A DNA stretch of 54,506 nucleotides from Methanothrix sp. (GTDB lineage: Archaea > Halobacteriota > Methanosarcinia > Methanotrichales > Methanotrichaceae): positions 1 through 54,506 of the forward strand of contig NZ_JASFYM010000014.1 in the NCBI RefSeq assembly GCF_030055635.1, read 5' to 3'. Both the position numbers and the translations under genes were made by a program. Each line of letters starts with the position of its first letter. The first letter of the stretch is position 1. Of this stretch, positions 12,351 to 54,505 are shown one piece after another. Under the pieces are notes generated by a model. It worked only from the letters and a program-made list of their open reading frames with translations, was not told the origin of the DNA and made no database searches.

Positions 12351-13016
12351 TCAGACCAGACCGCTTGATGTTATCAGAAAATCTGCCACCTCACCCTCAG
12401 GCTGCGACCTGTGCTTCACCACGCGCATCCTCCTCCGCCCCTCGCCCAGTCTCTCCAGTGCAAGTATCGCCTTGCAGAGGTGCTCCATCGATGTGCCTCC
12501 AACAGGTCTGAGGACCCCCGTGTCGACATCCATGTACACCTGATTTGTTATAACCACAGGCATGCTGTGCCTTCTGGCGATCTCCTGGAGCTCTGATAGC
12601 TGTGCTGTCAAAGATCTCTTTATCTGGCGGTTATCATTTGCTTCAAGGGCAGCTCTGTAAAGTGATGTCGCGGAATCTAGAACAACGAGCCCGAAGCCCT
12701 GCCCGACGATCCTGGACGCATCCCTTATCGCCATGTGCTGCTGCTCGAGGCTGAGCGGCTGGAAGACCACGATCTTCGAGGCGATCTCCTTCGCATTCTC
12801 TCCAGCTATCTGGACGAACCGATCCGGAGAGAATCCCTCGGTATCTATGAAGATCACACGCGATCCGAGTTTCACGGTCTGCACTGATAGCTGTATCACT
12901 ATGTTGGTCTTTCCGGTGCCGGATTCGCCGTATATCTGTGTGATTATTCCCGCCTCGAATCCGCCACCGAGGAGCTCATCGATGCTCTTGCATCCTGAGG
13001 GAATTCGTTTGATCAT
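12351..13016 (-). CDS. radB: DNA repair and recombination protein RadB
   Basis: A 221-residue RecA/RadA-superfamily ATPase found only in euryarchaea. It lacks the N-terminal helix-hairpin-helix domain of RadA, which makes RadB the better call. Walker A is GESGTGKT (30-37), Walker B is FGLVVLDS, and an ITNQVYMD segment occurs near the loop regions. The C-terminus is short. RadB is thought to assist RadA in recombination rather than to catalyse strand exchange itself. It converges with RNase Z, with about 50 bases between the two stops. Confidence 0.94.
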   Translation of the reverse strand: MIKRIPSGCKSIDELLGGGFEAGIITQIYGESGTGKTNIVIQLSVQTVKLGSRVIFIDTEGFSPDRFVQIAGENAKEIASKIVVFQPLSLEQQHMAIRDASRIVGQGFGLVVLDSATSLYRAALEANDNRQIKRSLTAQLSELQEIARRHSMPVVITNQVYMDVDTGVLRPVGGTSMEHLCKAILALERLGEGRRRMRVVKHRSQPEGEVADFLITSSGLV

Positions 13017-13212
13017 CTGCGAGAAGATGATGGTGAAATACTATAAGTGTTCCTGCGTGTTCCTGCACCGGTGAGGCTGAAGATCCGTGTGCTGTTGTGA
13101 GTTAAAGCCCCATGCTTTCCAAAGCGCATGCACAGAGAGCTGGGCATGGCATTCTTTCGCAAGCATACCATGAGCGTTTTTCTGGGGAGACGTGGTGGCT
13201 GCCATTTCTGTG

Positions 13213-13319
13213 CGACTTCCTCTCCGGCCTGAAGGCCCAGAGCTTCCTGCGCTTCGACTTTGTCGAAGCCTCTCGATTGCATCGAGAGCTGTCGAAGCCC
13301 TTCGACGAAGTCGAAGGTT
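13213..13319 (+). repeat. Hairpin array; solo copy of the TnpB-end repeat
   Basis: Four stem-loops follow one another. These are CTCCGGCCTGAAGGCC with partner CAGAG (13222-13242), GCTTCGAC-TTT-GTCGAAGC (13251-13268), CTCTCGAT-TGC-ATCGAGAG (13270-13288) and CTTCGAC-GAA-GTCGAAG (13300-13316). The first, with its flanks GACTTCCT and GAGCTTCCTG, matches the hairpin beside tnpB at 54338-54374 and the copy at 32317. It lies downstream of the convergent... that is, 3' of the UPF0212 gene and upstream of radB. No transposase frame remains here. The rest of 13017-13332 holds no recognised gene. Confidence 0.75.
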
Positions 13320-13332
13320 TCATTACAGGCCT

Positions 13333-32268: not shown

Positions 32269-32316
32269 TTTTTCCAGAACCTCCACTTGACGGCTGTTTT
32301 TGAGAAAGGCTCGATG

Positions 32317-32369
32317 TGACTTCCTTCCCTGATGGGGAAGAGCTGCCTGCGCTTCGACAAAGTCGAAGG
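32317..32369 (+). repeat. Hairpin repeat; second solo copy of the TnpB-end element
   Basis: TGACTTCC, then a stem CTTCCC-TGATG-GGGAAG (32324-32340), then GAGCTGCCTGCG, then CTTCGAC-AAA-GTCGAAG (32352-32368). The flanks match the copies at 13213 and 54338, while the first stem has changed on both sides and still pairs. Further short palindromes follow (GCTTC...GAAGC at 32395-32414, GGCCTTCAGGCC at 32429-32440). The remainder of 32147-32625 has no recognised gene. ATTTATAT near 32567-32574 is a probable TATA element for the next gene. Confidence 0.7.
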
Positions 32370-32625
32370 TTTCACAGATCCGGTTATCCGGTATGCTTCT
32401 GCTAGCGTGGAAGCAGTTACAAGCCCTGGCCTTCAGGCCTGAGCAGTTGCGTACTCGAAGTTACGAGCTGCTGCAGATGAGCATCTCAATTCGCCAGATG
32501 ATCATGCATCAGTGACACTCAGATGCACACTTTCTATAAATATCTACAAGTTTCAAAACAAATTATTTATATGATTACGTTATTTCCATTATATGTAAAA
32601 GCTCTTTGGTTAATGGTGGTCGTGG

Positions 32626-50425: not shown

Positions 50426-50571
50426 CGGCCTCTCAGATGGACCCATCCATCACTGAGTTCACCTTATCAAACATATAGCTGGCGGTGCAGGGTGAATTCA
50501 ACTTCATGGAGAGCAGCAGGGCGCAAACTCAGGAGTTCAGGCCGGAGAGGTCATTCAGCGGTACACTAACC

Positions 50572-54332: not shown

Positions 54333-54337
54333 GCAGG

Positions 54338-54374
54338 TGACTTCCTCTCCGGCCTGAAGGCCGGAGCTTCCTGT
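54338..54374 (-). repeat. Hairpin at the end of the TnpB element
   Basis: CTCCGGCC-TGAA-GGCCGGAG (54347-54366) is a perfect 8-bp stem flanked by TGACTTCCT and CTTCCTG. It begins about fifteen bases after the tnpB stop, where IS200/IS605-type elements carry a right-end hairpin and where the 3' end of the guide-like RNA is located in other TnpB systems. Solo copies are at 13213 and 32317. Confidence 0.7.
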
Positions 54375-54388
54375 CTCACTGATCTGTT

Positions 54389-54505
54389 TCATCCAGCATC
54401 TCCACAGGCTCTGCCCCTCAGTCCGAGGGTGAGAATGTTTAATGCCGCGTTGAGATCCCGATCAAGCCTGAGCCCGCATCGCGGGCACTCGTGGACTCGA
54501 TCCTT
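54389..54505 (-). CDS. tnpB: TnpB (IS200/IS605 OrfB) C-terminus, runs off the window
   Basis: The last 38 codons read KDRVHECPRCGLRLDRDLNA, then ALNILTLGLRGR, then ACGDAG and a stop. This is the second half of the TnpB zinc finger (CPRCG) followed by the conserved DRDLNAALNI segment that contains the last RuvC Asp. The rest of the gene is outside the window. TnpB is an RNA-guided nuclease in other organisms. The partner TnpA, if any, is not visible. Confidence 0.88.
   Translation of the reverse strand, partial: KDRVHECPRCGLRLDRDLNAALNILTLGLRGRACGDAG

Follow-up and report, generated by a model that had tools for sequence, protein, structure and literature searches.

The segment 13214–13323 of the window (the whole 54,506-nucleotide stretch of Methanothrix sp. 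DNA analysed here) is very probably the 5′-truncated right end (RE) of an IS200/IS605-family transposon of the IS1341 type (tnpB-only), later invaded by twin-hairpin elements, with solo copies of such ends produced by hairpin-to-hairpin deletion and/or by TnpA acting in trans. The preliminary description reported three hairpin copies with shared flanks, at 13213, 32317 and 54338, and all three are present, with the flanks GACTTCC and GAGCTNCCTG common to each. A 251-base query taken from 13213 matched 34 places in the 1.76 Mb genome from which the window comes (G000), and many of these matches lie immediately downstream of tnpB genes or their relics, which identifies the flagged hairpin as a tnpB-element RE, oriented along the minus strand of the window. 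The three hairpins are copies of one RE of an IS200/IS605-family, IS1341-type tnpB element (Table 1).

Table 1. Features assigned in the window, with the basis of each assignment, and in-frame TH1 inserts outside the window
Feature	Position	Strand	Basis
RE terminal tail AGGAAGTC, outer end of relic	13214–13221	-	Identical in tnpB-linked copies
RE hairpin, one-base bulge in stem	13222–13242	-	R3 match 13212–13265, E 9.5e-7; DNA fold
TH1 twin hairpin (two 8-3-8 hairpins)	13251–13288	-	TH1 model, E 1.8e-11
Older twin-hairpin remains, host of inner TH1	13289–13317	-	C18/C26/13213 comparison; weak TH1 match 13292–13317
ATGAAA, truncation point, inner border of tnpB 3′ flank homology	13318–13323	-	Copy comparison
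Family A RE without gene, stem CTTCCC/GGGAAG	32316–32341	-	251-base query match 32315–32368, E 1.1e-4
Single remaining TH1-type hairpin, CTTCGAC/GTCGAAG	32352–32368	+	TH1 model, E 0.15; reading of sequence
tnpB 3′ flank homology (GATAACCGGATCTGTGAAAC)	32368–32396	-	Visual comparison with the C26 and C5 copies
Possible TH2 remnant	32394–32427	-	TH2 model, E 0.53 (weak)
Degenerate family B RE, back to back with RE(A)	32412–32449	+	By eye against family B RE; R3, E 0.145 (weak)
Terminal-only ~50-bp element (LE arm, hairpin, RE tail)	50504–50554	+	Two model matches, E 1e-5 and 9.9e-7
RE of contig-end tnpB element, perfect stem	54337–54373	-	R3 match 54337–54391, E 5.3e-11
tnpB (family A) 3′ end, cut off by contig end	54389–54506	-	PF07282, E 9.4e-8
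In-frame TH1 insert in family B DNA polymerase gene	L085 1501–1538 (G000:C3:132228); also L327, L302		
In-frame TH1, 39 nt, in IS256-family transposase gene	L073 1500–1538 (G000:C1:159980)		

The RE stem reads CTCCGGCC/GGCCGGAG at 54338 and CTTCCC/GGGAAG at 32317, and between these two sites the compensatory changes that had been described hold; in the decayed RE stem at 13213 a single base is bulged (CTCCGGCC TGAA GGCC-c-AGAG). Compensatory changes are to be expected in a hairpin that is read as single-stranded DNA, as this sub-terminal one would be by a Y1 (HUH) transposase, TnpA. Covariation within the solo copies alone is weak, and the automatic alignment of RE hairpins was so gappy that a small hand-picked set, including left-end (LE) hairpins and congeners, was used, with pairs taken in order from the loop to the foot of the stem. 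Folded as DNA, the segment 13210–13325 does show in its centroid structure the four hairpins noted earlier at this site, but the extra ones do not belong to the element end: they are separate twin-hairpin elements, whose clean insertions occur in tnpB 3′ regions and within one another. Folding of this segment is strong (z = -4.9 for DNA and z = -4.3 for RNA, with 0 of 200 shuffles equalling the native sequence) and that of 32312–32455 is weaker (z = -2.9, 1 of 200 shuffles).

In tnpB copies the RE hairpin would lie at the 3′ end of the omega-RNA, an expressed RNA bound by TnpB, the scaffold of which comes from the tnpB 3′ end together with that hairpin, and 13213 keeps none of this tnpB coding sequence. 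A structured RNA, as first suggested, would make the solos and relics functional noncoding RNAs (orphan omega-RNAs or others) kept by selection; the strong folding of 13210–13325, the compensatory stem changes and the high transcription of one haloarchaeal PATE end (PMC10544981) are in keeping with this, but it is rendered very improbable by the lack of any Rfam match in the window, by the absence of tnpB 3′ sequence beside the RE in the ~50-bp copies as well as in 13213, by the polymorphism of the sites across the genus and by the decay of many of the copies read. The copies behave instead as transposon-end DNA, with insertion 3′ of TGAY, no target duplication and separate LE and RE halves, and are best regarded as an element end, not as a family of structured RNAs.

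Nearly full-length copies of the parent element were found at C1 and C5, with an LE reading TGATAGAGAATA(A/G)CAGGGCGCAAACTCC... and an RE reading ...CTCCGGCCTTCAGGCCGGAGAGGAAGTCAC. As in the IS200/IS605 family, sub-terminal hairpins are present at both LE and RE (in C1, C5 and C17; those of the C5 copy differ at one of 20 bases), and the solo members are inserted 3′ of a fixed short target without target duplication. The gene between the ends of C1 gives OrfB_IS605, Cas12f1-like TNB and guided_TnpB matches above cut-off, and its product is predicted to be a TnpB of the RNA-guided-endonuclease type. No PF01797 (Y1 transposase) match was obtained in the genome itself, and no Y1 transposase was detected in the congeners G001, G003, G004 and G005, although draft assemblies could hide one; several contigs of the draft G000 assembly terminate in tnpB. 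Among the congeners, G002 alone has one Y1 tnpA, which lies beside a tnpB start in an element with a similar LE (GATAGCAGGGC, a hairpin and CAGCCCGTGCC).

A covariance search, the check proposed with the preliminary description, recovered further copies: the R3 model (54 nt, built from 11 hits of the 251-base query) matched the 1.76 Mb genome at 87 or more places (E ≤ 1e-4; the E-values are rough). At most 150 candidates were scored per genome, so that all per-genome counts are lower bounds. Roughly 70 of the 87 places are gene-less elements of ~50 bp, each composed of an LE arm, one hairpin and an RE tail, and one of them lies in the window (50504–50554). The corresponding R3 counts in congeners are at least 60 (G004), 37 (G001), 15 (G003), seven (G005) and five (G002); a few matches occur elsewhere in the family, outside the genus, and with at most 150 candidates scored per genome there were none in the eight genomes of the same class and none in 11 of the 20 relatives searched. 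Of 66 solos read in G000, 52 start with TGAT or TGAC and 43 finish with TCAC. Clean alignments from an empty-site panel of 17 loci, mostly best-scoring copies, gave GAGTGAT/GCAGA (L106), CTAAT/CTCAC (L105) and TGAC/GAGC (L109) in G004, with the slash at the junction, indicating that the element enters 3′ of TGAY without target duplication. The gene-free spread proposed earlier is thus borne out for the family, by the ~70 gene-less copies and several empty sites in congeners, but not for 13213 and 32317, which look truncated. Directly after the TGTGAT that precedes the G000 solo L107, congeners have a different single hairpin (L301, L304, L305 and L313), which hints that the site has been used more than once or that the sequences have diverged strongly. 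One solo (L124 1501–1556, G000:C18:42836) is chimeric, combining the LE arm and hairpin of family A with the RE tail of family B. In the solos, diagnostic bases of LE type and RE type showed no informative linkage (A/T 16, G/T 9, A/C 8 and G/C 6).

In the preferred explanation, elements would first be transposed as single-stranded DNA by TnpA acting in trans; deletion from the LE hairpin to the RE hairpin would then leave a gene-less element of ~50 bp, and twin-hairpin elements would subsequently invade the element ends. The solos would accordingly arise by deletion between two hairpins and/or move by means of TnpA in trans. A competing possibility, given somewhat less than an even chance, is that the ~50-bp elements multiply independently, with TnpA supplied in trans carrying complete units to new TGAY targets, and that most of them never were full tnpB elements. 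Solo and tnpB numbers are unlinked (at least 60 solos and one tnpB fragment in G004, at least 15 and none in G003, at least five and 15 tnpB matches in G002), which is compatible with independent mobility; loss of tnpB copies after deletion would give the same counts. Characterised TnpA acts as a dimer on the LE and RE hairpins, so that in a self-multiplying solo one hairpin would have to do both, and TnpA is absent from most of these genomes as searched. Several G000 sites do lack the solo in congeners, and in Haloquadratum six strain-specific 52-bp ISHwa23 copies suggested mobility (PMC3119063).

It is very improbable that the hairpins instead owe their position at the 3′ ends of genes to placement or retention as REP-like elements serving as mRNA ends or stops. 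The TGA closes an open frame of at least 60 codons in 17 of 53 TGA-starting solos, compared with 13% for random TGAY (these being raw frames of unverified gene status), but TGAY target choice combined with removal of gene-breaking insertions would yield the same pattern; the copies are also polymorphic between congeners, and in those read the hairpin has no downstream T-run.

Within the transposon-end explanation, both 13213 and 32317 are better described as truncated RE relics than as transposed solo elements, because no LE was found at either site, whereas a terminal-only PATE has both LE and RE termini. The 13213 relic retains the RE and nested twin hairpins without tnpB codons and stops ~10 bp from the stop codon of a DUF555 gene. 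At 32317, the assignments other than RE(A) come from by-eye reading and weak model matches. No exact empty site could be accepted for 13213: the spacer aligns poorly in G001–G003 and the radB block is inverted. This block (12351–13056 of the window) is inverted relative to G001, G002 and G003, and one breakpoint of the inversion falls inside the spacer harbouring the relic.

These transposon-end remnants belong to a type of archaeal mobile DNA that is already known. In Haloquadratum walsbyi, terminal-only PATEs of 52 bp result when the stretch between two identical near-terminal palindromes of an IS605-type element is deleted; whether they move was left open (PMC3119063). The ~50-bp solos, including 50504–50554, are a close match in anatomy: they have fused IS605-type termini with a near-terminal palindrome, no terminal inverted repeats, no target duplication and no gene-sized space, and the Haloquadratum elements (the 52-bp forms of HqIRS46 and ISHwa23) are likewise IS605-derived with near-terminal palindromes, lack a target duplication, have a short targeting sequence on the 5′ side and retain ~50 bp after deletion between identical palindromes of 19–22 bp (PMC3119063). 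The differences are the archaeal lineage and sequence, the target TGAY and the presence of up to ~70 single-hairpin copies per genome. REP/REPIN sequences and their TnpA_REP (RAYT) (PMC6006769) likewise consist of hairpins akin to IS200/IS605 ends that are scattered through the genome, for the most part between genes; the solos, in contrast, have two distinct ends (LE arm and RE tail), with no GT[AG]G hairpin foot in the copies read and no Y1 gene (PF01797) in their own genome. None of the papers searched pairs Methanothrix with TnpB. The solos provide a second archaeal lineage with terminal-only, IS605-derived elements of ~50 bp at high copy, and the congeners with precise empty sites make the self-movement of minimal ends, the question raised in PMC3119063, directly testable.

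The twin-hairpin elements are of two kinds, TH1 (38 bp) and TH2 (43–44 bp). TH2 is located in tnpB genes and relics, with clean insertions at GGTATA/CGTCAC and GGAGA/TACTGG in copy comparison, and in the C18 copy a TH1 is nested within an older TH1. Five congeners contain TH1, often beside an RE, and none was found in seven other genomes. Paired stem positions of TH1 covary, with 53 double-changed cells where 1000 shuffles gave 19 on average and 34 at most, by a control that ignores relatedness and with one row read out of register. TH1 also occurs in frame in protein genes. A family B DNA polymerase has a TH1-type insert at the same codon in G000, G004 and G001, of 12 codons in the first two and longer in G001, which is absent from G002, G003 and G005; a gene with no Pfam or NCBIfam match contains an in-frame TH1 in G000 and G001 (L074 and L333) but not in G002.

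SMR-A, a small mobile repeat of Haloquadratum (PMC3119063), is similar in lacking a transposase and a target duplication and in preferring IS605-type elements and PATEs, at their near-terminal palindromes, as insertion sites, as the TH elements prefer tnpB elements, but it is ~110 bp long with terminal inverted repeats, whereas TH1 and TH2 are 38–44 bp twin hairpins and TH1, unlike SMR-A, occurs in frame in host genes. Compared by anatomy alone, the Rickettsia palindromic elements (PMC10969869) resemble TH1 in being palindromic inserts in frame in unrelated protein genes, but are ~150 bp long, and TH1 is 38 bp, archaeal and mostly found in tnpB ends; in-frame REP insertions have been reported in tnpA_REP genes (PMC6006769). 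It is tentatively proposed that the 38–44 bp twin hairpins form a separate class of mobile elements, so far from one archaeal genus. They would invade tnpB ends, insert into one another and survive in frame in genes such as that of PolB, and the ~50-bp single-hairpin elements would spread in genomes that contain neither tnpA nor a full-length tnpB. The TH elements are an archaeal case of a tiny palindrome adding 12–13 in-frame codons to protein genes. In G005 (L352–L358), TH1 copies lie inside a longer repeat with the conserved flanks GCTGAAAGCATTCATTGCCAC ... GTAAGTCGAAACG, and related-looking GCAACTTGGAG... CAGGTTGCTGAAAGCAC sequences are seen near several tnpB ends in G000.
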